Positions 23,491-39,143 of a stretch of 64,000 bases of DNA are shown here, one piece after another. How positions within the stretch are numbered: position 1 is the stretch's first letter; each line of letters begins with the position of its first letter. The translations under genes were made by a program, and so were the position numbers. The stretch spans positions 186,001-250,000 of the forward strand of contig NZ_WMBA01000001.1 of assembly GCF_009707865.1 (NCBI RefSeq), written 5' to 3'. A model generated the notes under the pieces. The model saw nothing but the letters and a program-made list of their open reading frames with translations. It searched no databases and was not told the DNA's origin. This stretch comes from Amycolatopsis pithecellobii. Its GTDB lineage: Bacteria; Actinomycetota; Actinomycetes; Mycobacteriales; Pseudonocardiaceae.

Positions 23491-23524
23491 TTGACCCAGC
23501 ACGCGAATAAGACCAAACTTTATT
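23491..23524 (+). promoter_or_regulatory. putative promoter and dyad upstream of DUF2231 gene
   Basis: A TTGACC -35-like hexamer at 23491 lies 17 nt before CAAACT (23514-23519). Over it lies an AT-rich inverted repeat, AATAA at 23506-23510 and TTATT at 23520-23524, in an unusually AT-rich spacer next to the COG2345 regulator gene. Confidence 0.42.
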
Positions 23525-23553
23525 TGCGATTTAGCAGAGAGGTGGCGGTCGTC

Positions 23554-24090: not shown

Positions 24091-24105
24091 CGAAAGGCTC
24101 CTGTC

Positions 24106-24705
24106 ATGCCTCCCGCGACCCCGCTGCGAGTGGTACACGAACAAGATCCCGGTGTCGCTCTGGGCGCGGCCGAGACCGCCGCCGCCCAGTTCCTCCAGGC
24201 ACTTGGCGTCGAATTGGACTCCGAAAGCCTGCGCGGCACCCCGGGACGGATGGCGCGCGCCTACGCGGAACTGTTCAGCCCGCGCCCGTTCGACCTGACC
24301 ACGTTTCCGAACGATGAGTGCTACGACGAACTGGTATTGGCCCGCGCCATTCCGGTCCGATCGGTCTGCGAACACCACCTGTTGCCCTTCGTCGGCGTCG
24401 CGCATGTCGGTTACCTGCCAGGGGAACGCATCCTCGGTCTGTCCAAACTGGCCCGGATCGTGGAGCATTTCGCCCGCCGCCCGCAAGTGCAGGAGCGGCT
24501 GACCAAACAGGTCGCCGACTGGCTGTGCGAGCACCTGCACCCGAAGGGAGTGGGCGTGGTGATCGAGGCCGAGCACACCTGCATGACCCTGCGCGGCGTG
24601 CAGGCCGTCGGCTCCACCACCGTCACCTCCACGCTGCTGGGCACCCTGCGCGAGGACGCCCGCTCCCGGCAGGAGTTCTTTGCCCTCACGGGGGTCGGCG
24701 CCTGA
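24106..24705 (+). CDS. folE: GTP cyclohydrolase I
   Basis: 199 aa. Zinc ligands are visible: Cys88 and His91 in VCEHHLLPF and a second Cys near residue 159 in HTCMTLRGV. The core GERILGLSKLARIVEHFARR is typical. It converts GTP to dihydroneopterin triphosphate, the entry to folate and other pterins. The N-terminus is short, as in many secondary actinobacterial FolE copies. It sits between a DUF2231 gene and a HAD gene rather than in a folate operon, so it may be a conditionally expressed paralogue. Confidence 0.93.
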   Translation: MPPATPLRVVHEQDPGVALGAAETAAAQFLQALGVELDSESLRGTPGRMARAYAELFSPRPFDLTTFPNDECYDELVLARAIPVRSVCEHHLLPFVGVAHVGYLPGERILGLSKLARIVEHFARRPQVQERLTKQVADWLCEHLHPKGVGVVIEAEHTCMTLRGVQAVGSTTVTSTLLGTLREDARSRQEFFALTGVGA

Positions 24706-24772
24706 CCTCGCCGGAGCGCCGGGTATGCCACCCTCGATGGGAGGCTTTGCGACGCTGGAAGGAGATCGTGCC

Positions 24773-25438
24773 ATGGCCCGACGCCCACTGGTCATCGCGT
24801 TCGACGTGATCGAGACGTTGTTCCCGCTCGAACCGCTGCGCGCCCGGATCCTCGCGGCGGGCGCGCCAGGTCATGTGCTGGAGCTGTGGTTCACCCGGCT
24901 GCTGCGCGACGCCTTCGCACTGACCGCTGCCGGCGGCTACCGGCCGTTCGGCGAAATCGCCGCAGGCGCTTTGGAGTCGATCACCAGCCTGTCCGAGGAC
25001 GCTGTGCGCGGGATCGTGGCCGGGTTCGCCGAGCTGGACCCGCACCCGGACGTGGCACCCGCACTTCGCCGCGTCCGGGAAGCGGGGGTATCGGTCATCA
25101 CGCTCACCAACGGCTCTGCGCACACCACCCGTACCTTGCTGCGGCGTGCCGGGGTGCTCGACGATGTGCAGCAGGTGCTGACCGTGGACGACATCCAGCG
25201 GTGGAAGCCCGCACCGGAGATCTACCAGTACGCGGCCCACGCCTGCCAGGTCGAACCCGGGCAGGTGGCACTGGTGGCCGCACACGGCTGGGACCTCCAC
25301 GGCGCGCACCAGGCCGGACTCGTCACCGGATGGGTCAGCCGCCTGGAAGGCCGGTTCCCGCCGGTGTTCGCACCCCCGGACGTGACCGGCGACGGCCTGG
25401 TCGAGGTGGTCGAGGCGCTGCTGGCGCTGACCGAATGA
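24773..25438 (+). CDS. HAD-superfamily hydrolase, haloacid dehalogenase type II-like
   Basis: 221 aa. Motif I reads AFDVIETLF with the nucleophile Asp, motif II TLTNGS, and motif III lysine lies in RWKPAPEIYQ. Motif IV (VAAHGWDLHGAHQAGL) has the form seen in 2-haloacid dehalogenases rather than phosphatases. ATG 24773 follows AAGGAGA, so open frame upstream of it is not used. It is the last gene before a convergent terminator. The physiological substrate may be a phosphate ester or a halogenated acid. Confidence 0.8.
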   Translation: MARRPLVIAFDVIETLFPLEPLRARILAAGAPGHVLELWFTRLLRDAFALTAAGGYRPFGEIAAGALESITSLSEDAVRGIVAGFAELDPHPDVAPALRRVREAGVSVITLTNGSAHTTRTLLRRAGVLDDVQQVLTVDDIQRWKPAPEIYQYAAHACQVEPGQVALVAAHGWDLHGAHQAGLVTGWVSRLEGRFPPVFAPPDVTGDGLVEVVEALLALTE

Positions 25439-25458
25439 GGTGGGCAGCCCGAGCGCCT

Positions 25459-25500
25459 CGCCGGGAGATCGGTGAACCCCTCAGCTCCGATCTCCCGGCG
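25459..25500. terminator. bidirectional hairpin terminator
   Basis: CGCCGGGAGATCGG (25459-25472) and CCGATCTCCCGGCG (25487-25500) are a perfect 14-bp inverted repeat with a 14-nt loop. The right arm overlaps the last codons of the convergent dehydratase gene, so the hairpin serves both directions. Confidence 0.75.
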
Positions 25501-26506
25501 CTGACGAGGGCCCCGCCGGGCGGTCGTCGTAGTCGGCGAGTACCGATTGCACCAGCCCGTGCTCCACATTGCCACCACTGAGCAGGACCCCGATATCCCG
25601 CACCTTCCCCGCGGAGTCTTCCACCACCCGGAGCGCCGCCGCGAGTGCGGTGGCGGCGGCGGGTTCCACCAGCAGCCGGGATCGGTACAGCACAGCGCAC
25701 ATCGCGCTGGTGATAGCCGCTTCGTCCACGGTCACCACGGTGTGCACCCGATCGCGGATGATGCTGAACGGCAGCAGGCCGATCCGGTCCGGCCGTAGTC
25801 CATCCGCGACAGTCGCTTGTGGAGTCACCGTCACCGGCCGGCCGGCGTGCAGCGCCGAGCTGAGCGACGGCACGGCAACGGGTTCCGCTGCCACCACGGC
25901 AAGGTCACTACCTTCGGCGGCAAGGGATGCTCCGGCTATCGCACTGCCGCCGCCCACCGGAAGGACGACTGCGTCCAGGGCGCTTCCCGCCGATTCGACC
26001 TGGCTGATCAGCTCGGCCGTCGCCGTTCCCTGCCCCGCCACGACGACCGGGTTTTCGTAGGGGTCCACCACATCGTAGCCGCGCCGGTTCCGAATTCTGT
26101 CTACTTCGGACATTCGATCGGCCAGCACTGTCCCTGTCTGCACGACAACGGCCCCGGCCTGCTCGATGCGCCGGATCTTCGCCGGAACGGCGTCGGTAGG
26201 CAGGACAAGCACCGCGGGCAGCCCGCACTCACGTGCGGCGAGCGCAACCGCGATGGCGTGGTTGCCCGTGCTTTGCGCGACGACGCCACGACTTCCCGCC
26301 GCGGCCAGCTCCCGGACGGCGAGCAACGCACCTCTGATCTTGAACGACCCGCCACGTTGCAGGCATTCGGCTTTCAGCCATACCCGTGCGTGTGCCAGTC
26401 GATCGAGTTCGTCGTTGCGGATGACCGGCGTGCGCACCACGTGTCCGGCGAGTTGTCTCTGCGCGCGGTCGATATCAGCCCTGGCGAGTGCGGCGGGTTC
26501 AGTCAC
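25481..26506 (-). CDS. PLP-dependent threonine/serine dehydratase family protein
   Basis: 341 aa, fold type II PLP enzyme without a C-terminal ACT domain. The Schiff-base lysine is Lys56 in RGGSFKIRGA, and the phosphate-binding glycine loop is PVGGGSAIAG. It deaminates a beta-hydroxy or diamino acid to a 2-oxoacid. GTG 26506 overlaps the hydroxylase stop by 4 nt, so it belongs to the molybdenum hydroxylase operon. In E. coli the ygf/yge purine region has a PLP ammonia-lyase (YgeX) in a similar place, though YgeX is not the same subfamily. Substrate unproven. Confidence 0.8.
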   Translation of the reverse strand: MTEPAALARADIDRAQRQLAGHVVRTPVIRNDELDRLAHARVWLKAECLQRGGSFKIRGALLAVRELAAAGSRGVVAQSTGNHAIAVALAARECGLPAVLVLPTDAVPAKIRRIEQAGAVVVQTGTVLADRMSEVDRIRNRRGYDVVDPYENPVVVAGQGTATAELISQVESAGSALDAVVLPVGGGSAIAGASLAAEGSDLAVVAAEPVAVPSLSSALHAGRPVTVTPQATVADGLRPDRIGLLPFSIIRDRVHTVVTVDEAAITSAMCAVLYRSRLLVEPAAATALAAALRVVEDSAGKVRDIGVLLSGGNVEHGLVQSVLADYDDRPAGPSSAPGDRS

Positions 26507-29220
26507 GGCGTGCTCCCGGCTTCCCGCAATGCCTGCCAAACCACATCAGGGGTCAGCGGGAGCCGGGTGAAACGAATGCCGGTGGCGTCACGCACCGCGT
26601 TGGCCAGTGCGGGCGCGACCGGATTGACCGGGCTTTCGCTCATCGACTTCGCGCCGAGTGGGCCGATGGAGTCGTAGGTGTCCGCGAAAACGACCTCGGT
26701 CCGGGGCGCGTCGGCATACGTGGGCATACCGTAGGAGCGGAAATCGGTTGTGGTGACGGCACCCTGGGTGTCGATACGGACCACTTCGGACACAGCCGTG
26801 CCGAGGGCCTGTGCCACCCCGCCTTCCACCTGCCCGCGGCATTGCGCCGGGTTGAGCACCCGGCCCGCGTCCGCGGCGTGCACACTACGCAGGATCTTGA
26901 TCTCGCCAGTGTCCGGATCCACCGCCACGTGAAACCACTGGGCGTTGAAGGCGACCGATCGCCGTGCACCGTCGAATCGGCCCTCAGCCTGGGGCTCGCG
27001 CCCAGCGGCGTGCATCGCCGCCCACACTTCCTTGAGAGACAAGGCATCCGGACCACACCGCAACACGCCGGCCGTCAGCGTACAGTTTCGGGGCGCCTGT
27101 CCGGTGTGGCTCGCGGCGAATTCGATCAGCCGCGATCGCAATCCTTCGGCCGCGCGCACCACGGCCTTGCCCGCCACGACAATGCCGGTGGACCCGAATG
27201 CGCCGGTGTCATGTGCGACGAGGTCCGTGTCGGATTGCGCCACGGTGATGTCCTGGACCCGGCACCCCAGCACGGATGCGGCAAGCTGGCGGTGAACCGT
27301 GGTCGTGCCGTTACCGAATTCCGCGGTACCAACGGAAAGCAGGTAACTCCCATCCTCGAGAAGGGCCATCCTGGCGTCGGCGAAATGCCCGTTCGGTGGT
27401 CCGGCCGCGCTCATGGTCAACGCCATCCCCTGACCCGTCAGCCACCCGTCCGGCGCCTGGGCAAGGCTGCCCGATGCGCCGGCCCCGCGCATGACGTCAA
27501 GGCATTGACCGGCGCCGTGACTGCCGATTTCGAGTCCGTCGTCGGGACCGCCCGGGGTGAGCAGCGGTTCGTCCGGCCCGATCACGTTACGCCCGCGAAA
27601 GTCGATCGGGTCGATGCCGAGCCGCCGCGCAAGCTCGTCGAGTGCGGAGTCCACCGCGAACATCACCTCGCCGATCCCGTAGCCGCGGAAAGCTCCCGAA
27701 GGGACAGTGTTGGTATAGACCGAAAAGCCGTCGACCTGCTTGTGCGGGCAGCGATACAGGGCGAGGGACTCACCGCAGCTGTGAAAGAGCACGGCCGGAC
27801 CATGGTTGCCATAGGCGCCCGTGTCGGTGATGATCCGCAGGCGCAGTGCGGTCAAGCGGCCGTCGCGGCGACCGCCCACGGTGACGCCGACTGTGAACGG
27901 ATGTCTTGTGGTGGCCGAGGTGAACTGTTCGGCGCGGGTGTATTCCAGCTTGACCGGGCCACCGGTGCGCAGCGCAGCAAGCGCGACGATATCCTCCACC
28001 AGCATTTCCTGTTTACCGCCGAAGCCGCCGCCGACTCGCCCGGTCAGCACCCGGACCCGTTCCGGTGGCAGTCCGAACACCGCGCAAAGCGCCCGCCGGG
28101 TGAGGAATGGTGTCTGCGTGCTCGAGCGCACGGTCAGCCGGCCCTCGCTGTCGAACCAGGCAGCCGCGCTGTGCGGCTCCAGCTGCCCGTGCTGCGCGCG
28201 TGGTGTCCGGAAAGTCTCGGTGTACACGAGATCCGCCTCGGCCAAGCCCGCTTCGACGTCACCGAGCTGACCGTGCACCTCCGCGACTACGTTGCCGGGG
28301 ACGCTGGCTATCCGCGACTCGGGTCCCTTTCCATTGTGGACGATCGGCGCGCCGGTCCGCATCGCCGATTCCGGATCGGTGACCGACGGCAGTATCTCGT
28401 ACCGGACAACGATTTTCCGGCAAGCTTCGTCGGCGGCAGCCTCGGTGTCCGCGACCACGGCCGCGACGCGCTGGCCGATATGCCGGACCACATCGTCCAG
28501 CACACGGGTATCCGCCGGATCTTCCTCCGCGCGCTCGTGGCGGGCGGTGGAGAACAGCGCCGGTGGCGCGTCGCGATGGGTCAGCACGGCGACCACCCCG
28601 GGCACGGCCAGCGCCCAGGTGGTGTCGATGGCGACGATCCGCGCGTGTGCATGCGGAGAGCGCAGCACCTTCAAGTGCCGTATTCCCGGTATCTCCAGGT
28701 CGAGCGTGTAACGAGCGGCGCCGGTCACCACATCCTGCCCGTCCGGCGCGGGCAGGCCGCTGCCAAGCGCCTGGCCGGCTGCCTCATCGACACGGCGAAC
28801 GCCGCGGACGGCATCCTCGATGGCCCGGTAGCCGGTGCATCGGCACAGGTTTCCCTTGAACGACTGAGGCAGGTCGCGCAGCTGGTCGCTGTCCAGCGCG
28901 GCGGTGGTCATGATGAAACCCGGAGTGCAGAATCCACATTGGAATCCTTGTGCGTCAAGGAAGTTTTGCTGCACAGGATGCAGGCCGACGTCATCGGCCA
29001 GCCCTTCGATGGTGGTCACCTGCCTGTCATGGGCGCGGAAAGCGGGGTAGAGGCAGCTGTGCACCGCCACTCCGTCCACAGTGACGGTGCAGGCGCCACA
29101 GTCACCCGCGTCGCACCCTCGTTTCACTCCGAACCAGCCATGCTCACGCAGATAACCGAGCAGGCACTGGCCCGGTCTCGACGAGTCCTCAAAGGACTGC
29201 CCATTGACCACCACTGTCAT
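26503..29220 (-). CDS. xanthine dehydrogenase-family protein, fused 2Fe-2S and molybdopterin subunits (XdhD-like)
   Basis: 905 aa. The N-terminal 150 residues hold two 2Fe-2S clusters: Cys36, 41, 44 and 56, and Cys95, 98, 126 and 128 (QCGFCTPG, NLCRCTGY). The molybdopterin domains follow, with VGGGFGGK near residue 403, the substrate arginine in SGAFRGYG near 510, and the catalytic glutamate in AKSMSES near 859. The Fe-S/Mo fusion with a separate FAD subunit is the YgfM-XdhD arrangement of E. coli. It should hydroxylate a heteroaromatic such as a purine. ATG 29220 overlaps the FAD-subunit stop (ATGA); the dehydratase overlaps its end. Confidence 0.9.
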   Translation of the reverse strand: MTVVVNGQSFEDSSRPGQCLLGYLREHGWFGVKRGCDAGDCGACTVTVDGVAVHSCLYPAFRAHDRQVTTIEGLADDVGLHPVQQNFLDAQGFQCGFCTPGFIMTTAALDSDQLRDLPQSFKGNLCRCTGYRAIEDAVRGVRRVDEAAGQALGSGLPAPDGQDVVTGAARYTLDLEIPGIRHLKVLRSPHAHARIVAIDTTWALAVPGVVAVLTHRDAPPALFSTARHERAEEDPADTRVLDDVVRHIGQRVAAVVADTEAAADEACRKIVVRYEILPSVTDPESAMRTGAPIVHNGKGPESRIASVPGNVVAEVHGQLGDVEAGLAEADLVYTETFRTPRAQHGQLEPHSAAAWFDSEGRLTVRSSTQTPFLTRRALCAVFGLPPERVRVLTGRVGGGFGGKQEMLVEDIVALAALRTGGPVKLEYTRAEQFTSATTRHPFTVGVTVGGRRDGRLTALRLRIITDTGAYGNHGPAVLFHSCGESLALYRCPHKQVDGFSVYTNTVPSGAFRGYGIGEVMFAVDSALDELARRLGIDPIDFRGRNVIGPDEPLLTPGGPDDGLEIGSHGAGQCLDVMRGAGASGSLAQAPDGWLTGQGMALTMSAAGPPNGHFADARMALLEDGSYLLSVGTAEFGNGTTTVHRQLAASVLGCRVQDITVAQSDTDLVAHDTGAFGSTGIVVAGKAVVRAAEGLRSRLIEFAASHTGQAPRNCTLTAGVLRCGPDALSLKEVWAAMHAAGREPQAEGRFDGARRSVAFNAQWFHVAVDPDTGEIKILRSVHAADAGRVLNPAQCRGQVEGGVAQALGTAVSEVVRIDTQGAVTTTDFRSYGMPTYADAPRTEVVFADTYDSIGPLGAKSMSESPVNPVAPALANAVRDATGIRFTRLPLTPDVVWQALREAGSTP

Positions 29221-30020
29221 CGGTCGCTCAATTCCCGGCGGACTTCTTCGGCCAGCCGCAGCGTCAGCTGGCGGCGCCATTCGGGGAGTCCGTACGCGTC
29301 ACGGAGCCATAAGTCCTCCGGGATCGCCGTCGACACCTCGTCGGCCACTTCATCGCCGGTGGGCATCCGGTCGAAGCGCAGGACGAGCGGACGCGTCGTC
29401 GACGCGGTCACGGTCAGCGTCACCGCGTCGATCGCCGGACTTCGCCGGCCGATGACCATGACGGACGGCCGTCCATACCGGCGCAGCGAGCAACCGCGAA
29501 AGGCAACGGGATCCTCCAGCGCAGCCGCGGGCACCCGCACGGATCGCAGCATCTCGCCATCAGCCAGGGCCGTTCGCCCGTTTCCGATCACGAAATCGGT
29601 CACGGCCACCGATCTTCGGCGACCGTCGGTGCCGATCAGGACACAGACGCCGGCCAGCGCGGCCGTCAACGCGATCATCGGCCCGGCAGGAAGCGCCAGG
29701 CATAAATTGCCCCCGACCGTGGCCACGTTCCATACCTTGAACGAGGAGCTGAAAGACCGGCAGCACCATTGAAACAATGCGCGCGACGACGGTGGGGCAA
29801 GCCTGGCCAGTTCGGTGATCGTGCACGTCGCGGCGATCTGCAGACCGTCGCTTGTGGACTCGATCGGCGGCCAGCCCGTCGTGCCGAGATCGAGCAACCG
29901 GTTCAGCCCCGGTTGTGGCTGCGAGAAAAGGAAGGTGCCACCGGCGAGCCAGGCATCACCCGGGCGCCACGCGTCCAGTTCATGGGCGCCACGGATCTCC
30001 GTGAGAGTGGTGAGATCCAT
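29217..30020 (-). CDS. FAD-binding subunit of molybdenum hydroxylase (CoxM/YgfM-like)
   Basis: 267 aa. The FAD motif WLAGGTFLFS stands near residue 24 and NVATVGGNLCLALPAG near residue 100, in the order expected for CoxM-type subunits. It passes electrons from the Fe-S clusters of the XdhD-like partner to NAD or another acceptor. Start ATG 30020 lies 2 nt after the acetyltransferase stop. Translational overlaps link it to the fused hydroxylase gene, giving a clear two-subunit enzyme. Confidence 0.87.
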   Translation of the reverse strand: MDLTTLTEIRGAHELDAWRPGDAWLAGGTFLFSQPQPGLNRLLDLGTTGWPPIESTSDGLQIAATCTITELARLAPPSSRALFQWCCRSFSSSFKVWNVATVGGNLCLALPAGPMIALTAALAGVCVLIGTDGRRRSVAVTDFVIGNGRTALADGEMLRSVRVPAAALEDPVAFRGCSLRRYGRPSVMVIGRRSPAIDAVTLTVTASTTRPLVLRFDRMPTGDEVADEVSTAIPEDLWLRDAYGLPEWRRQLTLRLAEEVRRELSDR

Positions 30021-30022
30021 CG

Positions 30023-30514
30023 TTACCCCCTCGTTGAGCGGACCAGAACCAGGTCCAGCTCGTCGTGCAGCGGTATCCCGTCGACACCGGCTACCGGTAT
30101 CTGCGGTTTGATCTCGCGCGCGGCGTCCACCGCGCCGGGACGTACCATGGTGATGCGGAAACCGCGCTTTTGCAGTAGCCGCAACGCGATCAGCTGGTCG
30201 TTGGTGACCGTGCCCGATACGCGCCGGCAATCGGGCGAAAGAGCCTCGCACATAAAGGTATCGACCAATGAGCCGCCAATGCCCTGCCGGGACGGCACCG
30301 CGTCGAGGGTGATCAACTCGACCTCGGCACCCCGGTCTTCCCATAACAAAAGGCCGGTAATGGTGCCGTCCCGCAACGCGATCAAACCGGGTAGTGCCCC
30401 GAGATCGAACCTTTTCCCATGCTTTATGACGAAAAACGCCCCCCAGTGCTTTGTGACAAACGAACGCACAATGTCCCGATGCTCGCGGGAAACACGAGTG
30501 ATAACCGTGTCCAC
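30023..30514 (-). CDS. GNAT-family N-acetyltransferase
   Basis: 163 aa from GTG 30514; an in-frame TTG at 30538 is possible and neither has a strong ribosome site. The acetyl-CoA loop VPSRQGIGGSLVDTF, followed by VSGTVTNDQLIALRLLQKRGF, is the GNAT core. It is the first gene of the minus-strand operon, 2 nt before the FAD-subunit gene, so it is probably co-regulated with the molybdenum hydroxylase. Substrate unknown; an amine or amino-acid intermediate of the locus is the simplest guess. Confidence 0.75.
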   Translation of the reverse strand: MDTVITRVSREHRDIVRSFVTKHWGAFFVIKHGKRFDLGALPGLIALRDGTITGLLLWEDRGAEVELITLDAVPSRQGIGGSLVDTFMCEALSPDCRRVSGTVTNDQLIALRLLQKRGFRITMVRPGAVDAAREIKPQIPVAGVDGIPLHDELDLVLVRSTRG

Positions 30515-30708
30515 CGCCAGGAAACTACCAACGCACAATCATCGGTGATACCGCCAAGCGGCGCATGGGTGCCCGTACGCCGGGGACTGGGCCGGTGGAG
30601 TTAACCTGATTGCGGCACAGCGGGAGATGCGGTTTCCTGGCCACGGATCACCAGCTTCGCGATCGTGATCACTGGGGTTTCAACGCAGCTTCTCTGGTGG
30701 GGGTTGAA
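30515..30708. promoter_or_regulatory. divergent promoter region of the ureide island
   Basis: The only intergenic space between the two operons of the 25.5-39.1 kb island, about 190 bp. It separates GNAT (minus) from the LOG gene (plus). I see no long perfect dyad and no regulator gene adjoining it, so control must come from elsewhere. Promoter position is inferred from gene orientation only. Confidence 0.4.
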
Positions 30709-31275
30709 TTGTCGACGGAAGCGGTAAGCCTGGCTATCTGTGTGTTCTGCGGTGCCTCGCAGGGTGATTCACCGGTCTACACCGAAGCCGGATACCAGCT
30801 GGGAAAACAATTGGGATCCCGGTTTCATCGACTGATTTACGGTGCGGGCGGCGTCGGCGTCATGGGTGCGGTGGCGAGAGGAGCGGCCGAATACGGCGCG
30901 AAGATCGTCGGCGTCATTCCCTCATTTCTCCGGGAACGCGAGATGGGTGACGATATCCCACCTCAGGAGATCATCATCACCACCAATCTCGCCCATCGGA
31001 AAACGACCATGATGAACCTCGCCGACGGTTTCATCGGACTACCCGGCGGGTACGGCACCATGGACGAGATGTTCGAGGTCATCTCGATGAGCGCGCTCGG
31101 CGTGGAACGGCGGCCCGTCGTCCTGGTCAACACCAACGGTTTCTGGGATCTCTTCCTCGAACTCGTCGACGAACTGGGCAAACGCCGGTTCCTGCCCGAA
31201 GACAAGTATTTCATCGTGGTCGACGATCCAGCTGAGGCCATCGACCGCATCGAATTCGCCCGCGACGCCCGGTGA
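30709..31275 (+). CDS. LOG-family nucleotide 5'-monophosphate phosphoribohydrolase
   Basis: 188 aa from TTG 30709, with GGGGG 5 nt upstream; GTG 30697 is an alternative. The LOG signature PGGYGTMDE lies at about residues 112-120, with IYGAGGVGVMGAVARG before it and AHRKTTMMNLADGFIGL just upstream. LOG proteins cleave AMP or cytokinin nucleotides into free base and ribose 5-phosphate. As first gene of an operon facing a molybdenum hydroxylase, it could release purine bases for oxidation. Annotations of this family as lysine decarboxylase are historical errors. Confidence 0.85.
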   Translation: MSTEAVSLAICVFCGASQGDSPVYTEAGYQLGKQLGSRFHRLIYGAGGVGVMGAVARGAAEYGAKIVGVIPSFLREREMGDDIPPQEIIITTNLAHRKTTMMNLADGFIGLPGGYGTMDEMFEVISMSALGVERRPVVLVNTNGFWDLFLELVDELGKRRFLPEDKYFIVVDDPAEAIDRIEFARDAR

Positions 31276-31282
31276 TGCGCTC

Positions 31283-32428
31283 ATGAAGGCCGTCATCATC
31301 GGAGGCGGAATCGGCGGACTCGCCTTGGCTGCCACGCTCGAACGCAACAATATCGAATGCGTGGTCCATGAGCGCCGCGCCGACCTCGTGTCAGTGGGCT
31401 CCGCGCTCGTTCTGCATCCCAATGGCCTTGCCGCGGTGAAACGTATCGATTCGCGGCTGCATGCCGAGATCGCCGCCGCAGGCTATTCCCTGCCGGACGG
31501 CACTCCCACCTTCATCCTCGACGGTGACGGCCAAGTGATCAGCCGGCGGGTCCTGCCGCCGCCGTTGCGACCGGTCACCATTCGCAGAGCCGAATTACAC
31601 CGGTTGTTGCGTTCTCATTCCACCACGGCAACCATGGTATATGGCAGTACGTTTCTGCGTTACGAAACCGATCGGAACCGGGTACGCGTGCACCTCACCC
31701 GAGACGACCTGCGGGGCCGGTCCGGCGATTTCGAGCCGGTGACCGAGACGATGACGGGTGATGTCCTGATCGGGGCGGATGGGCTGCATTCCCGAGTACG
31801 CAGGCAGTTGCTGAACGACGGCGATGCGAGACCGATGGGCCTGACGTCCATAAAATGCATCGCCAAAATGCGCCACGACGATCCGTACCTTCGCGGTGGA
31901 TTCATCCTGTTCGGCCGGAACCAGCAGGCCTTCTGCGCCCCGCTCGGCCCCGATGTCGTCTATTGGGACGTGACGATCCGGGCCGGCGCGGGAACCTGGC
32001 CACACGAGCTGGAGCAGATCCAGCGCGAGTTGCTGAAGCCGCAGTGGGGCTGGCCTGCCCTCGTCCAGAACATGATCGCGGCAGCGGACCTCACCGAAAT
32101 GATCGTCACGGACCTACGTGATCGAAAAGGCGCCCGCCGCTGGTCGCGCGGAGCCGTGACCCTCCTCGGCGATGCGGCCCACCCGATGTCGCCCTTCCTC
32201 GGCCAGGGCACCAACCAGGCCTTACTCGACGCCGACGTGCTCGCCAAGATGCTGTCGAGCCATCGCGACGACCCGGCCGAAGCGTTCCGGCACTACGAAA
32301 TGGCGCGCCGCGATAGTGCCAACCAGGCGATGCGTGACTCGCGGCGAGTCGGGTTCGAGGGGCAGACCGGGAACCCCTTCGTCCGTTGGAAACGCAACCG
32401 TTCGCTCCGCCGCGCAGTCACGCCGTGA
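31283..32428 (+). CDS. FAD-dependent monooxygenase (possibly urate hydroxylase-like)
   Basis: 381-aa class A flavoprotein hydroxylase. GGGIGGLALA is at the N-terminus, RAELHRLLRS and LIGADGLHSRVRR are mid-protein, and GDAAHPMSPFLGQGTNQAL holds the second FAD contact. It starts 7 nt after the LOG stop. In Klebsiella, HpxO of this superfamily hydroxylates urate. The allantoinase, racemase and Mo-hydroxylase neighbours make urate or another oxidised purine an attractive substrate, but residues specific to HpxO cannot be confirmed by eye. A general aromatic hydroxylase is the alternative. Confidence 0.8.
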   Translation: MKAVIIGGGIGGLALAATLERNNIECVVHERRADLVSVGSALVLHPNGLAAVKRIDSRLHAEIAAAGYSLPDGTPTFILDGDGQVISRRVLPPPLRPVTIRRAELHRLLRSHSTTATMVYGSTFLRYETDRNRVRVHLTRDDLRGRSGDFEPVTETMTGDVLIGADGLHSRVRRQLLNDGDARPMGLTSIKCIAKMRHDDPYLRGGFILFGRNQQAFCAPLGPDVVYWDVTIRAGAGTWPHELEQIQRELLKPQWGWPALVQNMIAAADLTEMIVTDLRDRKGARRWSRGAVTLLGDAAHPMSPFLGQGTNQALLDADVLAKMLSSHRDDPAEAFRHYEMARRDSANQAMRDSRRVGFEGQTGNPFVRWKRNRSLRRAVTP

Positions 32429-32451
32429 CCGAAGGAAAGGCAGGACCGATC

Positions 32452-33411
32452 ATGCCGGGGAAGCGGCATGGCACCGTCGCGGTACTCGGCGCGGGCCAAT
32501 GCGGCAGGATGACGGCCCAGCGGCTGGCGGAATCCGATGTCTACCAACGGATCGTGCTCACTGACATCATTCCGGGACTTGCCGAAGGCATCGCGCTCGA
32601 CCTCAACCAGTCCCGCGCGATCACCGGATTCGAGACCACTGTGGAGGGTCACCGGATGCGGACGGGCGGCGACTGTGCCTGCATCAGCGATGCGCAGATC
32701 GTGGTCATCGCGGCCGGCGTCGTGTCCAGTGCGCAAGAGCCCGGCCGCACCAGCCGCATGGTCGGCGAACTCTGTGCGCAGATCGCATTGCATTCTCCGG
32801 AGGCGGTGATCGTCGTCCTGAGCAATCCCGTGGACGCCCTGACCGCGTTGGCCCGGGCCGTAACCGGGTTCCCGGCGCATCGTGTGCTGGGCCAATCCGT
32901 GCTGCTGGACTCCGCGCGGTTCGCCGACTTCACGGCCACGCTGCTCGGGGTGCCGAGATCCGCTGTCCAGCTGACCATGGTGGGTTCGCACGCGCATGAC
33001 AGCACGATGATTCCGTTGTTGTCCGGTGCCACCGTCTACGGCGTTCCGCTGACTTCGTTGCTCAGCGAGGAAGATCAGGCCACCTTGACGGCCGCGGTCC
33101 GCCGTGGCGGGGCCGATGTGATGAAACTGCTCGGCACCGGCTCGTCGTTCTACGCCGCGTCGGCGGCCACCGCACGGATGGTGCGGGCCATCCATGATGA
33201 CGACGGCACGGTGCTTCCCGTGTGCGCCTATGTGGACGGTGAATACGGGGTGCACGACGTCTTTCTGGGCGTACCGGCACTACTCGGTCGCAGCGGCGTG
33301 CGACGAGTCGTGCAACTGCCACTGAGTCCTGGTGAACAGGCCGCGCTTGCCACCGCGGCCGAGGTGATGCGGGCCCGGCAACGACAGTGCATCGAGCAAT
33401 GGAAGGAATGA
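32452..33411 (+). CDS. lactate/malate dehydrogenase-family 2-hydroxyacid dehydrogenase
   Basis: 319 aa, Rossmann LDH/MDH family (GAGQCG at 13-18). Visible active-site features are Asn125 in LSNPVDALT, Asp153 and Arg156 in LDSARFADF, and His180 in GSHAHDS, although the usual G-x-H-G-D motif is altered. The substrate-loop residue that separates LDH (Gln) from MDH (Arg) aligns by eye with Gln95 in SAQEPGRTSR, suggesting a lactate- or other 2-oxoacid-type substrate. ATG 32452 has an AGGAAAGGCAGGA site; GTG 32425 overlapping the upstream stop is an alternative. It is immediately followed by an ATP-grasp ligase. Confidence 0.8.
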   Translation: MPGKRHGTVAVLGAGQCGRMTAQRLAESDVYQRIVLTDIIPGLAEGIALDLNQSRAITGFETTVEGHRMRTGGDCACISDAQIVVIAAGVVSSAQEPGRTSRMVGELCAQIALHSPEAVIVVLSNPVDALTALARAVTGFPAHRVLGQSVLLDSARFADFTATLLGVPRSAVQLTMVGSHAHDSTMIPLLSGATVYGVPLTSLLSEEDQATLTAAVRRGGADVMKLLGTGSSFYAASAATARMVRAIHDDDGTVLPVCAYVDGEYGVHDVFLGVPALLGRSGVRRVVQLPLSPGEQAALATAAEVMRARQRQCIEQWKE

Positions 33412-33421
33412 AGGTGATCGC

Positions 33422-34456
33422 ATGACAGCCACGGGCAAGCTGCGAGTCGCGATATTCGTCGGCGGCCGGACCGCGGAGCACTCGAACTCCATCGACAGCG
33501 GCGATTTCGTGCGGTCGTCATTGCGCGAAGCAGGGTACGAGGTTTCGGTGATCGGGATCAGCCGCAGCGGAAAATGGCTGCGCCAGGCCGACGACGTCCC
33601 GCTTGAGTTCGATGAGGGCCGCAGTGAGATCGTGACCGGTACGCCCATGTCGGTCGACGAACTCGACGCGGACGTGGCGTTCCCGGTATTGCACGGCCCG
33701 TATGGCGAAGACGGGACCGTGCAGGGCCTGCTGGAAATGATCGACATGCCCTATGTCGGTTGCGGAGTCTTCGCATCGGCTGCCGCCAAGGACAAGGTGT
33801 GGGCCAACCGGTTGCTGGAGGCAGCCGGGCTGCCGGTCGCGCCATGGCGGGTGCTGGCGCCCGGCCGCACCCCGAAACCGATCGAGGAGTTCACCCCACC
33901 GGTATTCGTGAAACCCGCGCGCTGCGGAGGAAGTCTCGGCGTCTGCATCGCACACACCTGGGACGAGCTCGAAAGCGCCGTCGCGGAAGCACGCCGGTTC
34001 GATCCGAAGGTCATCATCGAGCAGGGAATGTCCATCAGGGATGTCGAATGTGGCGTGCTCGAGTTCGCCGGCAAGGACGCGCCGGTGGCGAGCGTGGCCG
34101 GCGAGACGATCGCCGGAACGGAACACGAATTCCTCAGCTATGAAGCCAAGTTCTTCGACAGTTCCGTCCAGTTGCTCGCGCCGGCGCCATTGGACGACGC
34201 GCTCACCGAGAAGGTCCGCACCATGGCGGTCGATGCGTTCCTCGCACTGGGCTGTACCGGACTGTCGCGTGTGGACATGTTCGTTACCGGCGAGAACTCG
34301 GTGCTGGTGAACGAGGTGACCACGATGCCCGGCTTCTCCCGCGTCTCGAACTTCGCGAAGATGTGGCGTGCCTCCGGTCTCGAAGCACCGGACCTCGTCG
34401 ACGGTCTTGTCCGGCTGGCACTCGCCCGCAAGGCCGAATCCGACCTGCCTCTTTGA
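33422..34456 (+). CDS. D-alanine--D-alanine ligase homologue with altered active site
   Basis: 344-aa ATP-grasp ligase collinear with actinobacterial Ddl (GGRTAEH, FPVLHGPYGEDGTVQG, VFVKPARCGGSLG, SRVDMF, NEVTTMPGF). Measured against E. coli DdlB numbering by eye, Glu15, Lys144, Lys215, Arg255, Asp257, Glu270 and Ser281 are kept. However, Ser150 is Gly170, Tyr216 is Phe244 and the Mg-ligand Asn272 is Thr300. The Tyr-to-Phe change is the one known from Leuconostoc-type D-Ala-D-lactate ligases. It lies 10 nt after a lactate/malate-type dehydrogenase and 26 nt before an M20 hydrolase. It probably joins an amino acid to something other than D-Ala; housekeeping Ddl is unlikely. Confidence 0.84.
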   Translation: MTATGKLRVAIFVGGRTAEHSNSIDSGDFVRSSLREAGYEVSVIGISRSGKWLRQADDVPLEFDEGRSEIVTGTPMSVDELDADVAFPVLHGPYGEDGTVQGLLEMIDMPYVGCGVFASAAAKDKVWANRLLEAAGLPVAPWRVLAPGRTPKPIEEFTPPVFVKPARCGGSLGVCIAHTWDELESAVAEARRFDPKVIIEQGMSIRDVECGVLEFAGKDAPVASVAGETIAGTEHEFLSYEAKFFDSSVQLLAPAPLDDALTEKVRTMAVDAFLALGCTGLSRVDMFVTGENSVLVNEVTTMPGFSRVSNFAKMWRASGLEAPDLVDGLVRLALARKAESDLPL

Positions 34457-34482
34457 CCCTCGATACGCCAGGAGAGGAAAGC

Positions 34483-35697
34483 ATGACCACGACCGGCAAT
34501 CCGCTCGCCGACTCGAACGACGCCCGGGTCGATGATGCGGCACTGATCGAACTCGCCCGCGGGCTGGCCGCGACGCCCAGCCAGTCGGGCAACGAACGGC
34601 GCGCGATCGAACTCGTCACGGACGCCATGCGCACCCTCGGTTTCGAGGTCACCGTCGATCGCAGCGGCAACGCCATCGGCACGATCGGCCAGGGACGCGC
34701 CGGCGCGTCCCGGTTGCTCATCGACGGCCACATCGACTCGATTCCGCTGCATTCGGAGGACAGCTGGCGGGTCGACCCATTCGGCGGCGTGCTCGAGGAC
34801 GACCGCCTGTTCGGACTGGGCATCTGTGATCAGAAAGCCTCGATCGCCGCAGCCATTCACGGCGTCGCCGCCCGGCGAGCACGACTCGCGGACGGTCCGG
34901 GCCTCGTCGCGGTGGTGGCGAGCGTCTGCGAGGAACACATGGAAGGCGCGGCGCTGGCCGAAGCGGTCGAATTGGTTCAGCCGACGGCGGTGATCACCAC
35001 CGAGCCGAACGACACGCGACTGGCCGTCGGGCAGCGCGGCCGGGCGAAGGTGGAGGTCGAGGTACTCGGCCGGGCCTGCCACGCAGGTCATGCCGGCGAA
35101 GGGGTCAACGCCGCCGAGGGCGTCGCCGCGTTGATCGACGCCGTGCGGCGAGTGGCGCGGCCGCATCACCCGCAACTCGGTTACCGTGACATCACCTGCA
35201 TCGACGTGACGTCGTGGCCCTACCCTTCGGTGTCGACCGTGCCGGGCCGAGCCCTCGCCCGCTTCGACGCGCGGTTCCTGCCGGGGGAGACCGAGGAGTC
35301 GCTGCACGAGCTTCTCCGGTCGGCGGCGGCCGGGGCATGGGCAGAGTGGGCCGAACCGCCGAGCGCACAGGTGCGGACGGTGGCAGCGGATTTCACCACT
35401 TACACCGGGGCGCGATACGTCGTGGGGGAGTTCGCGCATGCCTGGTGGACGGACGGGCCCATCGTGGAGTCGGCTCAGCGGGCGCTGGCCACCGCCGGCC
35501 TCGATCCGACTCCCATGTCGTACTCCTTCTGCACCAACGGCTCGTACACGGCGGGCAAACTGTCGATCCCCACGATCGGGTTCGGGGTCGGTGAGGAACA
35601 CATCGCGCACCAGGCCAACGAATACGTGACGTTGTCCTCGCTTCGCCGTGGCGCCAAAGGCTTGTCGGCCCTGAGTGTCGAATTGACCGGCGCCTGA
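34483..35697 (+). CDS. M20-family metallohydrolase, YgeY-like
   Basis: 404-aa dinuclear zinc amidohydrolase. Metal ligands can be placed at His83 and Asp85 (DGHIDSIP), Asp116 (GICDQKAS), Glu150/Glu151 (CEEHMEG) and a histidine near the C-terminus (EEHIAHQANEY). The DVTSWPYPSVSTVP stretch and the end match the YgeY group of putative peptidases and carbamoyl-hydrolases found in purine-degradation clusters. ATG 34483 has GGAGAGGAAAG upstream. It may hydrolyse allantoate or a ureido acid, or cleave the product of the preceding ligase. Confidence 0.84.
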   Translation: MTTTGNPLADSNDARVDDAALIELARGLAATPSQSGNERRAIELVTDAMRTLGFEVTVDRSGNAIGTIGQGRAGASRLLIDGHIDSIPLHSEDSWRVDPFGGVLEDDRLFGLGICDQKASIAAAIHGVAARRARLADGPGLVAVVASVCEEHMEGAALAEAVELVQPTAVITTEPNDTRLAVGQRGRAKVEVEVLGRACHAGHAGEGVNAAEGVAALIDAVRRVARPHHPQLGYRDITCIDVTSWPYPSVSTVPGRALARFDARFLPGETEESLHELLRSAAAGAWAEWAEPPSAQVRTVAADFTTYTGARYVVGEFAHAWWTDGPIVESAQRALATAGLDPTPMSYSFCTNGSYTAGKLSIPTIGFGVGEEHIAHQANEYVTLSSLRRGAKGLSALSVELTGA

Positions 35698-35812
35698 CCG
35701 CGCACACCGCTACACTGGGTATCCCTTTGTTTCCGGAAAGGACGAACAAATAGCTACTGGCTCGCCGAATTCCCCTGACCTCACGCACGACGTATCGGAT
35801 TCCGCCGGCCTG

Positions 35813-37024
35813 TTGGCACCATTTCGCTATCGGCCTTTCCGCCGGCTGGTGGCGGCCCGGTGCGCGAGCTCCTTCGACAAGACCATGGCACCGGTCGTGC
35901 TCGCGTTCGCGGTACTGGACCTCAACGGATCACCACTCGATCTCGGACTCGTGATCGGCGCGAGATCGTTGGCACTGGTCGCCTTCGTGATGGTAGGCGG
36001 TGTCGTCGCCGACCGGTTGCCCCGGATGCTGGTCTTGCAGGGATCGGGTGTCGGCGCCGGGGCGGCACTCGCGTTGGCCGCCGCAAGCATGTACGGCGGT
36101 TTCGCCTCGGTCTCCCTTCTTTTGTGGCTGAGCCTGATCAGTGGCGCGTTCGCCGGTATCTCGCTTCCCGCGATTATGGCGCTCACCCCGGAAACGGTGC
36201 CGGGCGGGCTGATCCGGCAGGCCAATACGGCCTCCCGGCTCGGCGCCAACGCGGCCCTGCTGATCGGCGCGTCCAGTGCGGGGATCGTGGTCGCAACACT
36301 GTCCTCCGCTACGGGAATCGTCCTCGACGCGGCGATGTGCGCGCTGATGGCGATCTCGTTCACCGGGCTCGGGCAAACCAGTGCCGTGCCTGCCCGTGCG
36401 GGCGCGCATCCGATCAGGGATTTGCGCGAGGGCTGGCAGGAGTTCACCGGCCGACAGTGGTTATGGGTGGTGACGGTGGCTTTCGCACTGGTCAACGCCG
36501 CTGCGGCCGGTGGCCTCCAGGTGCTGGGGCCAGTGGTCGCCGATGACTCGTTCGGCCGTTCCGTCTGGGGTTTCGCATTGGCCGCGCAGACGGGCGGCAT
36601 GCTGTTCGGCGGCCTGACCGCGATGTACTGGAAACCGGCTCGAGCGCTGGGCGCCACGGTGGCACTGTCCATTTTGGAGACCTGCCCGCTGCTGGTGCTC
36701 GCGTTCCACCCACAGCCGGTGCTGCTGATGCTCGCGATGACCGCCGCCGGGATCGCCATGGAACTGTTCGGTATCGCCTGGGATGTGTCCTTACAGGACA
36801 ACGTCCCGGCCGACCGCCTCGCACGTATCTATGCGTATGACGCGCTGGGGTCGTACGTGACGATCCCGATCGGGCAAGCAATCGCCGGTCCGCTGGCGGG
36901 TCGCGTCGGTACTGACGTCACGTTGCTGCTGTGCGCGGGCCTGGTCGTGGTCGCCATCGCCGGGGCATTGTGCAGCCGCAGCCTCCGGGAACTCACCAGG
37001 AATCCCGGCCATGACAAGCGTTGA
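35813..37024 (+). CDS. MFS transporter
   Basis: Major facilitator, at least 403 aa with about 10-12 hydrophobic helices and the inter-helix motif GGVVADRLPRM after helix 2. Closest in style to 12-helix drug or metabolite exporters. TTG 35813 is the first conventional start in frame but has no ribosome site. The frame continues upstream to an ATA codon at 35750, preceded by GGAAAGGA at good spacing, which may be the real start and would add 21 residues. It overlaps the allantoinase gene by 14 nt. Likely exports or imports a ureide or the product of the island. Confidence 0.82.
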   Translation: MAPFRYRPFRRLVAARCASSFDKTMAPVVLAFAVLDLNGSPLDLGLVIGARSLALVAFVMVGGVVADRLPRMLVLQGSGVGAGAALALAAASMYGGFASVSLLLWLSLISGAFAGISLPAIMALTPETVPGGLIRQANTASRLGANAALLIGASSAGIVVATLSSATGIVLDAAMCALMAISFTGLGQTSAVPARAGAHPIRDLREGWQEFTGRQWLWVVTVAFALVNAAAAGGLQVLGPVVADDSFGRSVWGFALAAQTGGMLFGGLTAMYWKPARALGATVALSILETCPLLVLAFHPQPVLLMLAMTAAGIAMELFGIAWDVSLQDNVPADRLARIYAYDALGSYVTIPIGQAIAGPLAGRVGTDVTLLLCAGLVVVAIAGALCSRSLRELTRNPGHDKR

Positions 37025-38324
37025 CCTCGTCATCCGCGCGGCACGCGCCGTCACGGCGGCCGGGGAAACGCCCGCGACGATCGCGGTCTCGGACGGACGG
37101 ATTGCCGGGGTCGAGCCCTTCGCAGCGGATATTCCCGCGCACACCGAGGTGCGGCTGGATGCGGACGTGGTGCTGCTACCCGGCTTGGTGGACACGCATG
37201 TCCATCTACAGGATCCCGGCCGGGACGCCTGGGAAGGTTTCGAGTCCGGCACCCGGGCGGCCGCGGCCGGTGGCATCACGACCGTGGTGGACATGCCACT
37301 GGACAGCTTGCCCGTCACCGTGACGCCGCAAGCGCTGGCCGCGAAACGCGCGGCTGCCGCGAACCGGTCCCATGTGGACGTCGGCTTCTGGGGTGGTGTC
37401 ACACCGGGCAACCTGCACCGGCTACCAGCACTGCGTGCGGCCGGGGTGCTCGGCTTCAAGTGTTTTCTCGCCGATTCCGGAACTCCCGAGTTCCCGCCGA
37501 TCACCCCGGCGCAACTCGGCGCGGCGCTCACGGAACTCGCCGGCACGGTGGTGCTGGTCCACGCCGAGTGGCCGGAACCTGGCCGCCCCACGGGCGGCAC
37601 GACTTATCGCGATTTTCTGGATCAGTACCCGGTGGACATCGAAACGCGGGCCGTGGCGTGCGTTCTCGAAGTCGCGCGGCGCACGCGAGGCCGGGTGCAC
37701 CTCGTCCATGTGGCGAGTGGCCACGCCGCGTCGATGATCGCGAAGGCGCGTCGCGACGGGATCGCTGTCACCGCGGAGACCTGCCCGCACTATCTGACTT
37801 TCAGTGCGCCGGATATCCCGGACGAGGGCACCGAATTCAAGGTGTGCCCGCCGATCCGCGAACCCGCCGACCGCGACCAGTTGTGGCGTGCACTCGAAAG
37901 TGGCGCACTGGACATGATCGTATCCGACCATTCCCCGTCACCGGCAGCCGGAAGAAGCCGTGACTTCGCCTCCGCGACGGCGGGTATCAGCTCACTTCAG
38001 CTCAGTCTGCCGGTGACGTGGACCGCGGCGAAACAGCGCGGCATTCCGTTGGCCAGGCTCGCCGACTGGATGTCGGCCGGACCGGCCCACCTCGCCGGGC
38101 TCGCCACAAAAGGCCGGATCGCCGCGGGCAAGGACGCCGATTTCTGCGTTCTGGCACCGGATGAACGGTTCGTCGTCGACCCTGCCGCGCTTGCGCATCG
38201 CCAGCGGGTCACGCCGTACGCGGGAAAGGAACTGTTCGGAGTGGTACGGGAAACCTGGTTGCGTGGCGAACGCGTCAGTTTTTCCCGGCCACGAGGCCGG
38301 TTACTGGTCAGGGGGAATGCATGA
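37011..38324 (+). CDS. allB: allantoinase
   Basis: 437-aa cyclic amidohydrolase. Binuclear metal-site residues are all visible: His63 and His65 (DTHVHLQDPG), carboxylated Lys150 (GFKCFL), His184 (VLVHAEWP), His233 (RVHLVHVASG) and Asp306 (IVSDHSPSP). The segments DPGRDAWEGFESGT, ETCPHYLTF and ISSLQLSLPVTWT match AllB more closely than dihydropyrimidinase. It opens allantoin to allantoate. It overlaps the MFS gene by 14 nt and the racemase gene by 4 nt, so transport, racemisation and ring opening are coupled. A hydantoinase role is the alternative. Confidence 0.88.
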   Translation: MTSVDLVIRAARAVTAAGETPATIAVSDGRIAGVEPFAADIPAHTEVRLDADVVLLPGLVDTHVHLQDPGRDAWEGFESGTRAAAAGGITTVVDMPLDSLPVTVTPQALAAKRAAAANRSHVDVGFWGGVTPGNLHRLPALRAAGVLGFKCFLADSGTPEFPPITPAQLGAALTELAGTVVLVHAEWPEPGRPTGGTTYRDFLDQYPVDIETRAVACVLEVARRTRGRVHLVHVASGHAASMIAKARRDGIAVTAETCPHYLTFSAPDIPDEGTEFKVCPPIREPADRDQLWRALESGALDMIVSDHSPSPAAGRSRDFASATAGISSLQLSLPVTWTAAKQRGIPLARLADWMSAGPAHLAGLATKGRIAAGKDADFCVLAPDERFVVDPAALAHRQRVTPYAGKELFGVVRETWLRGERVSFSRPRGRLLVRGNA

Positions 38325-39070
38325 GAATTCTGGTCGTCAACCCGAACACCACCGAGGAGATGACAGAGGCCATCGGCGCGGCCGCCCGCCACTATGCCTC
38401 GCCGGGCACCGAGATCATTCCATTGACCGCTCGTTTCGGGGCGGCCGGCATCGACAGCAATTTCGAGAGTTTGCTTTCCGCGGTGGCCGTCATGGATCTC
38501 GTCTCCGGATACCAGGGTCCCTTCGACGCGGTCGTGCTCGCCGGTTTCGGTGAGCACGGTCGCGAGGGAATGCAGGAGATCGTGGACGTTCCGGTATTCG
38601 ACATCGCCGAATGCTCCGCCCACGTGGCGCAGCTCATCGGCCGCTCATACTCGGTCGTCACCACGCTGCACCGGTCGATCGCCGCCATCGAGGACCGGCT
38701 GACGGTGGCCGGGTTGTCCGCCCGCTGTGCCTCCGTCCGTGCCGCGGGACTGTCCACTCTGGACATCGAACGATACCCGGAACGGGCTGCCGAAAGGATT
38801 CTCGAGCAGGCGAGGCTGGCCGTGCACCAGGACCGGGCCGAAGTACTGTGCCTCGGATGCGCGGGGATGACCGGCCTCGACGAGAAGATCACCACCGAAC
38901 TCGGCGTACCGGTGGTCGACGGTATCGGTGCCGCTGTCGGCCTCGCCGAAGCCGTGGTGGGCATGGGTTTGCGCACCAGCAAGGTGTGCACCTACGCCCG
39001 CCCCGAACCCAACCAGCTCACCGGCTGGCCGATCACAGCGCGAGTTGAACGTTCCGGTCGCGCGAGTTGA
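38321..39070 (+). CDS. allantoin/hydantoin racemase family protein (Asp/Glu racemase superfamily)
   Basis: 249 aa. NPNTT at residues 7-11 is the family entry motif, and the second catalytic cysteine is Cys180 in CLGCAGMTG. The first catalytic cysteine, normally in an A-C-F-G-D-P-G-type motif, is replaced: the stretch reads LAGFGEHGREG with Gly75 at that position. One-sided or altered catalysis is possible. Overlap with allantoinase (ATGA) suggests it supplies the correct allantoin enantiomer. The last residues are encoded by the first copies of a 22-bp tandem repeat, so the C-terminus may have been altered by the repeat. Confidence 0.83.
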   Translation: MRILVVNPNTTEEMTEAIGAAARHYASPGTEIIPLTARFGAAGIDSNFESLLSAVAVMDLVSGYQGPFDAVVLAGFGEHGREGMQEIVDVPVFDIAECSAHVAQLIGRSYSVVTTLHRSIAAIEDRLTVAGLSARCASVRAAGLSTLDIERYPERAAERILEQARLAVHQDRAEVLCLGCAGMTGLDEKITTELGVPVVDGIGAAVGLAEAVVGMGLRTSKVCTYARPEPNQLTGWPITARVERSGRAS

Positions 39071-39143
39071 GCGTTCCGGTGGCGCGAGTTGAGCGTTCCG
39101 GTGGCGCGAGTTGAGCGTTGCGGTGGCGCGAGTTGAGCCGTTA
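39038..39143. repeat. 22-bp tandem repeat array
   Basis: Four copies of a 22-bp unit at 39038, 39060, 39082 and 39104 (consensus begins GCGCGAGTTGAGCGTTCC) plus a partial fifth at 39126. Copies 2 and 3 are identical; copies 1 and 4 differ by single bases. There are no spacers between units. The racemase stop codon lies inside the second copy. Looks like a replication-slippage minisatellite. Confidence 0.9.

Follow-up and report, generated by a model that had tools for sequence, protein, structure and literature searches.

Why does an actinomycete with a complete set of genes for purine degradation keep a second group of purine and allantoin genes on a different contig? The question is raised by Amycolatopsis pithecellobii, and specifically by a stretch of 64,000 nucleotides of its DNA (assembly GCF_009707865.1, contig NZ_WMBA01000001.1, positions 186,001 to 250,000), here called the window. 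At window positions 25481-39070 (13.6 kb), 12 genes form two tightly packed divergent operons. Tentatively, and with somewhat less than an even chance of being right, we take them for a rare biosynthetic island, probably of lateral origin, in which a purine would be diverted to allantoate and a ureide-derived product exported. The left arm (minus strand) encodes, in order of transcription, a GNAT-like protein, an FAD subunit, a fused 2Fe-2S/molybdenum (Mo) hydroxylase and a pyridoxal phosphate (PLP) lyase. The right arm (plus strand) encodes, in order, a LOG protein, an FAD monooxygenase, an Ldh_1-type dehydrogenase, a Ddl homologue, an M20 hydrolase, an MFS transporter, an allantoinase and a racemase. 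Gene families were assigned with Pfam and NCBIfam models.

25481..26506, minus strand: fold-type II PLP enzyme, Ser/Thr dehydratase- or hydroxyaspartate ammonia-lyase-like (Pfam PALP, 1.4e-66)
26503..29220, minus strand: Mo hydroxylase (XdhD) with fused 2Fe-2S and Mo domains (Pfam; alignment to bovine xanthine dehydrogenase, XDH)
29217..30020, minus strand: FAD subunit of the Mo hydroxylase (Pfam FAD_binding_5, 1.9e-15)
30023..30538, minus strand: GNAT-family N-acetyltransferase-like protein, first in the left operon, with an uncertain start codon (Pfam Acetyltransf_1, 1.7e-4, 22.3 bits, cut-off 20.7)
30709..31275, plus strand: LOG-type nucleotide phosphoribohydrolase, first in the right operon (TIGR00730, 143.8 bits against a cut-off of 96.35)
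31283..32428, plus strand: FAD-dependent monooxygenase, a distant HpxO relative (Pfam FAD_binding_3, 1.3e-26; closest PDB chains HpxO)
32452..33411, plus strand: lactate/malate-type dehydrogenase (Pfam Ldh_1_N/C; alignment)
33422..34456, plus strand: second Ddl homologue, ATP-grasp (Pfam Dala_Dala_lig_C, 1.6e-52)
34483..35697, plus strand: M20 metallohydrolase, nearest YgeY (NF009555, 273.6 bits against a cut-off of 321)
35813..37024, plus strand: MFS transporter, efflux-like (TIGR00900 2.4e-37, Tet(V) 2.2e-33, EntS 8.1e-21, each under its cut-off)
37011..38324, plus strand: allantoinase AllB (TIGR03178, 502.4 bits against a cut-off of 357.85)
38321..39070, plus strand: allantoin racemase of the Gly...Glu/single-Cys type (PDB 5lfd, 2.7e-87)
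39038..39138, no strand: tandem array, 4.6 copies, of a dispersed 22-base repeat, marking the island's right end (repeat search of the genome)

Four junctions within the arms overlap, by 4 to 14 bases each, and the remaining gaps are of 2 to 26 bases, except for 115 bases upstream of the MFS gene. The two arms therefore look like operons rather than chance open reading frames. Their heads are separated by 170 bases. A promoter scan, of sigma-70 type only, found none. The PLP enzyme gene has a GTG start and overlaps the xdhD stop by 4 bases. The LOG start (near 30709) was placed by eye, as was that of the FAD subunit, most likely 30020. A first-pass annotation made from the letters of the window had named these gene families, and Pfam and NCBIfam find every one of them in the same span and on the same strands, but its gene list omitted the GNAT gene (30023-30538), which has no NCBIfam match, and extended the FAD subunit too far, to 30344.

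The same genome carries, on contig C57 at about 17150-29000, genes for 2-oxo-4-hydroxy-4-carboxy-5-ureidoimidazoline (OHCU) decarboxylase, 5-hydroxyisourate (HIU) hydrolase, uricase, allantoicase, allantoinase and an XDH-family large chain with its FAD subunit. Island and C57 locus have in common an allantoinase (53% identical between the two) and an XDH-family large chain with FAD subunit; uricase, HIU hydrolase, OHCU decarboxylase and allantoicase are confined to C57. The two large chains are 33% identical, and that of C57 has Glu at the bovine E802 position where the island enzyme has Gln. Because the full purine set lies on another contig, the island represents a second use of these families, and a second purine route needs another purpose or must add something. 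The first-pass report of missing HIU hydrolase and OHCU decarboxylase is thus right for the island, where Pfam and NCBIfam recognise no member of either family among the 12 genes, but not for the cell.

Aligned to bovine XDH, the island Mo hydroxylase has Gln, His, Tyr and Glu at E802, R880, F914 and E1261, positions that we take to serve in the Mo pocket. Matches to XdhD at 1e-100 occur in 24 of 149 other genomes, and none was found at that threshold in 18 genomes of the same genus. Neighbourhoods were fetched for 20 of the 24, the four weakest being left out. In all 20 the adjacency of XdhD and FAD subunit is kept and the same four pocket residues are present. A uricase, HIU hydrolase, allantoinase or xanthine/uracil permease lies nearby in 7 of the 20, uricase in 6 of them; the uricase of one such locus (L042, Pfam-assigned) is 60% identical over 290 residues to that of C57. 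At the thresholds applied, the other 13 loci showed no uricase, HIU hydrolase, allantoinase, xanthine/uracil permease, allantoicase or OHCU decarboxylase. The curated XDH model gives the island enzyme 550.1 bits against a cut-off of 780, and no NCBIfam XDH model passes. As for the first-pass label of XdhD/YgfM-like, the enzyme groups with those of uricase-bearing loci and is not shown to be of the E. coli reductive type, though the XDH models fail too. An XDH-like type with Gln and His replacing bovine Glu802 and Arg880 is common to the 20 relatives (loci L026-L045), 7 of them in purine loci. The XdhD homologue match of one other genome (locus L011, genome G041) contains one in-frame TGA.

The allantoinase passes the TIGR03178 equivalog cut-off and fails two narrower allantoinase models (391.3 of 631 and 298 of 688 bits); a hydantoinase model gives 183 bits against 502 for the AllB model. 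The racemase, for which there is no NCBIfam match, has as its closest solved structure the Pseudomonas fluorescens allantoin racemase 5lfd (2.7e-87), the Klebsiella racemase scoring 1.3e-44. Its signature, AGFGEHG and LGCAGM, follows a pattern common to 5lfd and all five readable relatives (5 of 8 alignment rows, three wrong-strand rows having been dropped). In the mechanism reportedly described by Cendron in 2016, the first catalytic Cys is replaced by Gly, a Glu stands three residues on and the second Cys is kept. An arylmalonate-type decarboxylase, suggested by the Gly in place of the first Cys, was considered and rejected, as identical Gly and Glu residues are present in the solved allantoin racemase of P. 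fluorescens. Racemase matches were found in 24 of 354 other genomes; of the 15 neighbourhoods fetched from these 24, two of which ended early at contig ends, 6 have an allantoinase no more than 4 kb from the racemase. A role for the allantoinase, racemase and Mo enzyme in purine/allantoin chemistry is supported by the curated model, the closest solved structure and the relatives' neighbourhoods. The first-pass assignment to purine and ureide families is borne out by the same three lines: AllB scores above TIGR03178, the racemase is nearest to 5lfd and the Mo group lies near purine genes in 7 of 20 relatives.

Other members of the island have departed from their families. The Ddl homologue shares 44% identity with the native Ddl of the genome, on C57, and passes two general Ddl subfamily cut-offs (NF002528, 352.7 against 262 bits; TIGR01205, 282.9 against 245.65). 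Three residues that are Ser, Tyr and Asn in the native enzyme and in five of five solved Ddl structures aligned are Gly, Phe and Thr in the homologue; we take the positions to be Ser150, Tyr216 and Asn272 of E. coli DdlB, with the roles presumed for these. Loss of Glu15, in what we presume to be the usual numbering, was also considered and rejected, the Glu being retained in the alignment. That the homologue is a self-resistance copy is given a low rating, because three usually conserved Ddl residues are changed. The substrate loop of the dehydrogenase, which reads RKPGM(S/N)RMDL in five of five readable relatives (5 of 6 alignment rows; one wrong-strand row was dropped), has lost 8 residues and gained 3. 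In malate dehydrogenase this mobile loop carries two substrate arginines. Small insertions precede the loop and lie near the catalytic His, and the core Asp, Arg and His are retained. The score against PRK06223 is 257.6 bits (cut-off 283). Matches of up to about 50% identity occur in 178 of 396 other genomes and are taken for ordinary malate dehydrogenases; a scan of named genomes gave 8 loci that were only 30-34% identical.

The closest solved relative of the monooxygenase is HpxO, at a low similarity (1.3e-25), and the curated HpxO model gives 136.6 of 500 bits. A Gln is aligned to Arg204 of HpxO (3rp6), which we assume to matter to the activity of that enzyme. A docking paper names 3RP8 as the R204Q structure. 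The M20 hydrolase stays below the cut-off of the YgeY model NF009555, although no model is nearer. The LOG protein fails a cytokinin-specific model (110.9 against 300 bits), and its closest PDB chain is a putative cytokinin riboside monophosphate phosphoribohydrolase. The best NCBIfam models for the PLP enzyme, PRK08246 and PRK07048, are both under cut-off, and a diaminopropionate ammonia-lyase model gives it 50.5 bits (cut-off 276). The nearest models of the MFS transporter, TIGR00900, Tet(V) and EntS, are of efflux type. Pfam and NCBIfam recognise no nucleobase, purine or allantoin permease and no uptake system among the 12 genes.

These assignments can be arranged as a route, of which every reaction, the order of reactions, the lateral origin, the export and the product are what we infer from sequence. 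LOG would free a purine base from its nucleotide, and the Mo hydroxylase would oxidise the base towards urate. Allantoin may then be formed by the island monooxygenase, the hydroxyisourate decaying spontaneously to racemic allantoin, or may come from the housekeeping uricase, HIU hydrolase and OHCU decarboxylase of the other contig. Racemase and allantoinase together would convert both (R)- and (S)-allantoin to allantoate. The YgeY-like M20 enzyme might trim a ureido group, and the resulting ureido acid might be modified by the remodelled dehydrogenase, the PLP lyase, the GNAT-like protein and the remodelled ATP-grasp enzyme before the MFS pump exported the product. A dehydrogenase without the malate-binding arginines could take ureidoglycolate.

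How far do known systems resemble this arrangement? The Klebsiella hpx locus for oxidative uricolysis, with the gene set that we assume for it, shares a monooxygenase of the HpxO-like family, allantoin racemase and allantoinase; the island differs in having no HIU hydrolase or OHCU decarboxylase, in the Gln for Arg204, and in its additional Mo enzyme, LOG, Ddl, dehydrogenase and MFS genes. The parallel with hpx drawn in the first pass is weak for the monooxygenase, given its HpxO score and the Gln at Arg204. According to a review (PMC4408171), spontaneous decay of hydroxyisourate makes an allantoin racemase useful, and the Klebsiella racemase is described in that role. In the same review, the cluster with which Pseudomonas sp. 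CBB1 oxidises caffeine at C-8 likewise has a Mo dehydrogenase, together with an HpxO-like monooxygenase and a homologue of allantoinase; a racemase homologue is reported absent, and LOG, Ddl and a malate-type dehydrogenase are not mentioned in the portion consulted (PMC4408171). The E. coli ygf/yge cluster for reductive use of uric acid, as the available excerpt presents it (PMC12507026), shares with the island a Mo hydroxylase with separate FAD subunit, a cyclic amidohydrolase, a YgeY-like M20 enzyme and a PALP-fold enzyme. It differs in that no YgfK-, SsnA- or YgeW-type gene was recognised among the 12 and in that the island Mo enzyme groups with uricase-bearing loci; a cluster of the E. coli type, defined by YgfK, SsnA and YgeW with XdhD, HyuA, YgeY and YgeX, is therefore not what the island contains. 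The same excerpt couples YgeY to YgeX in the conversion of albizziin, a ureido amino acid, to pyruvate (PMC12507026), and by analogy action of the YgeY-like enzyme on allantoate would be reasonable.

Precedents for such families in biosynthesis also exist. In the Streptomyces agm cluster, the LOG homologue AgmA releases adenine from AMP for angustmycin; this LOG-type supply of a purine base is shared with the island, whereas agm continues with sugar-building enzymes, the word allantoin is absent from the text of the paper, and the section consulted mentions no Mo hydroxylase (PMC8599513). NozR (nocardioazine) and OpaE (oxepinamide) are members of the allantoin/hydantoin-racemase family in biosynthetic clusters; they belong to pathways with peptide substrates, and purine enzymes are not mentioned in the portion of the source consulted (PMC12661438).

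The island is rare in the samples searched. The monooxygenase was matched at 1e-65 in 0 of 396 other genomes, the Ddl homologue at 1e-85 in 0 of 295, and the M20 hydrolase at 1e-70 in 1 of 347, at 40% identity; no other island gene was found in the surroundings of this sole match (L131). These searches used strict thresholds on genomes drawn from larger groups, and scoring was confined to the 4 to 7 best first-look candidates of each genome, so that the rarity speaks for the sample only. On plasmids, the best identity was 33.8% for the monooxygenase (best 8 of 580 records) and 37.5% for the M20 hydrolase (best 8 of 99). The whole gene order was found in no relative among the samples searched, and the only recurring parts were XdhD with its FAD subunit (20/20) and allantoinase within 4 kb of racemase (6/15). 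The first-pass annotation had staked its reading on conservation of gene order in at least some relative, and that conservation is absent from these samples. In composition, the GC content at third codon positions (GC3) of the 12 island genes is 0.783, against 0.825 for all 48 other genes called, doubtful calls included (p = 0.0016), and against 0.846 for 31 hand-picked ones (p = 1.1e-5). The drop is real, yet smaller than the hand-picked control implied.

A biosynthetic island is favoured because the Ddl homologue, the GNAT-like protein and the efflux-like pump have no evident catabolic place. A Ddl besides the native one, a GNAT gene, an efflux-like MFS gene and no nucleobase permease among the 12 would be odd for catabolism, and the altered Ddl and dehydrogenase sites, coupled divergent operons, lower GC3 and rarity in the samples point the same way. 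AgmA shows directly that a LOG-type enzyme can belong to a biosynthetic cluster. A more specific version, an undescribed route in which an allantoate-derived ureido acid would be activated or joined to an amino or hydroxy acid by a neofunctionalised Ddl-type ATP-grasp enzyme and leave by a dedicated exporter, seems to us rather unlikely. Several points weigh against biosynthesis. The 8 most similar XdhD relatives (62-65% identical) all lie outside purine loci, so the purine role by context is backed by the more distant relatives and not by the closest ones. The alterations of the Ddl homologue and the dehydrogenase might just as well reflect decay, the Ddl homologue still passing general Ddl cut-offs; no MFS model reaches its cut-off, which leaves the direction of transport a guess; and GC3 differs only modestly once all 48 other genes serve as the control. 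No known class of scaffold-building enzyme and no regulator gene is found among the 12. Among the open-licence papers listed on allantoinase or hydantoin biosynthetic clusters, LOG in nucleoside antibiotics, and purine- or allantoin-derived products, no title or abstract beginning described such a cluster. LOG, XDH, AllB, racemase and M20 could, moreover, serve plain nitrogen scavenging.

Scavenging is the core of a strong rival, an auxiliary catabolic island that salvages nucleotides and free purines for nitrogen. Its route would pass through allantoate and ureidoglycolate and end in oxalurate or C4 acids, and the substrates of the dehydrogenase and PLP lyase would be acids resembling ureidoglycolate and hydroxyaspartate. 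We regard this rival as a serious if doubtful possibility. AllB, the racemase, the XDH group and the YgeY-like M20 enzyme are catabolic families, the albizziin-to-pyruvate chemistry of YgeY and YgeX comes near to allantoate in the excerpted account (PMC12507026), and spontaneous decay of hydroxyisourate would make the racemase useful, as the review on caffeine C-8 oxidation cited above has it (PMC4408171); but the full purine set is already present on C57, a purine or allantoin permease is absent from the 12 genes and the Ddl and GNAT homologues would have no evident role. Breakdown of a purine that bears substituents, for example a methylxanthine or a cytokinin, or of a hydantoin, with LOG, Mo hydroxylase and monooxygenase acting as in caffeine C-8 oxidation, is improbable. 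The same pairing of a Mo dehydrogenase and an HpxO-like monooxygenase with an allantoinase homologue in CBB1, described in that review (PMC4408171), would suit it, as would closest solved LOG relatives named cytokinin phosphoribohydrolases and a monooxygenase without the Arg204 of HpxO. The four Mo-pocket residues, however, match those of relatives in ordinary purine loci, the 12 genes include no uptake system and no HIU-hydrolase or OHCU-decarboxylase family member, the hydantoinase model scores far below AllB (183 and 502 bits) and the cytokinin-specific LOG model failed. That unrelated genes have gathered in a variable region without forming a single pathway is about as improbable. Such accretion would fit a whole order seen in no fetched or searched relative, a dispersed repeat abutting the island end, and flanking HAD and quinone-oxidoreductase-like genes whose only matches, 42-50% identical, are in 3 of 18 and 7 of 18 other same-genus genomes; four overlapping junctions with short gaps, a coherent purine-allantoin theme and a fairly uniform GC3, distinct from the surroundings, argue for a unit.

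Were a biosynthetic island correct, ureides would join the recognised precursors of exported metabolites, and pathways of this sort would be escaping those gene finders that class XDH, allantoinase and racemase as housekeeping catabolism. Even a catabolic island would be a compact natural test of how a racemase lets a purine route dispense with an HIU hydrolase and OHCU decarboxylase of its own, and would show what the Ddl fold does once its usual active-site residues change.

The island is flanked on the left by genes for TetR, an M24 peptidase, an aldo/keto reductase, a LigB-type dioxygenase, a muconolactone isomerase, DUF2231, GTP cyclohydrolase I and HAD proteins, and on the right by peroxiredoxin-like and quinone-oxidoreductase-like proteins (both named by eye), TetR, FmdA and an amidohydrolase. 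The FmdA formamidase/acetamidase (41678-42784) and the LigB dioxygenase near the muconolactone isomerase homologue (20815-22711) suggest degradative genes in the wider region. GTP cyclohydrolase I (24106-24705) stands beside the HAD-type hydrolase, the pair occupying window positions 24106-25438, and nothing ties it to the island. Both were considered as island members and set aside, being convergent to it and each having a GC3 of 0.83 like the surroundings, a weak argument. At the right end, the repeat unit of the tandem array has the 22-base consensus GCGCGAGTTGAGCGTTCCGGTG. Its 21-base core occurs at 52 sites in the genome at up to 2 mismatches (33 forward and 19 reverse; a backward-read control gave 0), several of which are themselves short tandem arrays. 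The last codons and the stop of the racemase gene are supplied by this dispersed repeat.

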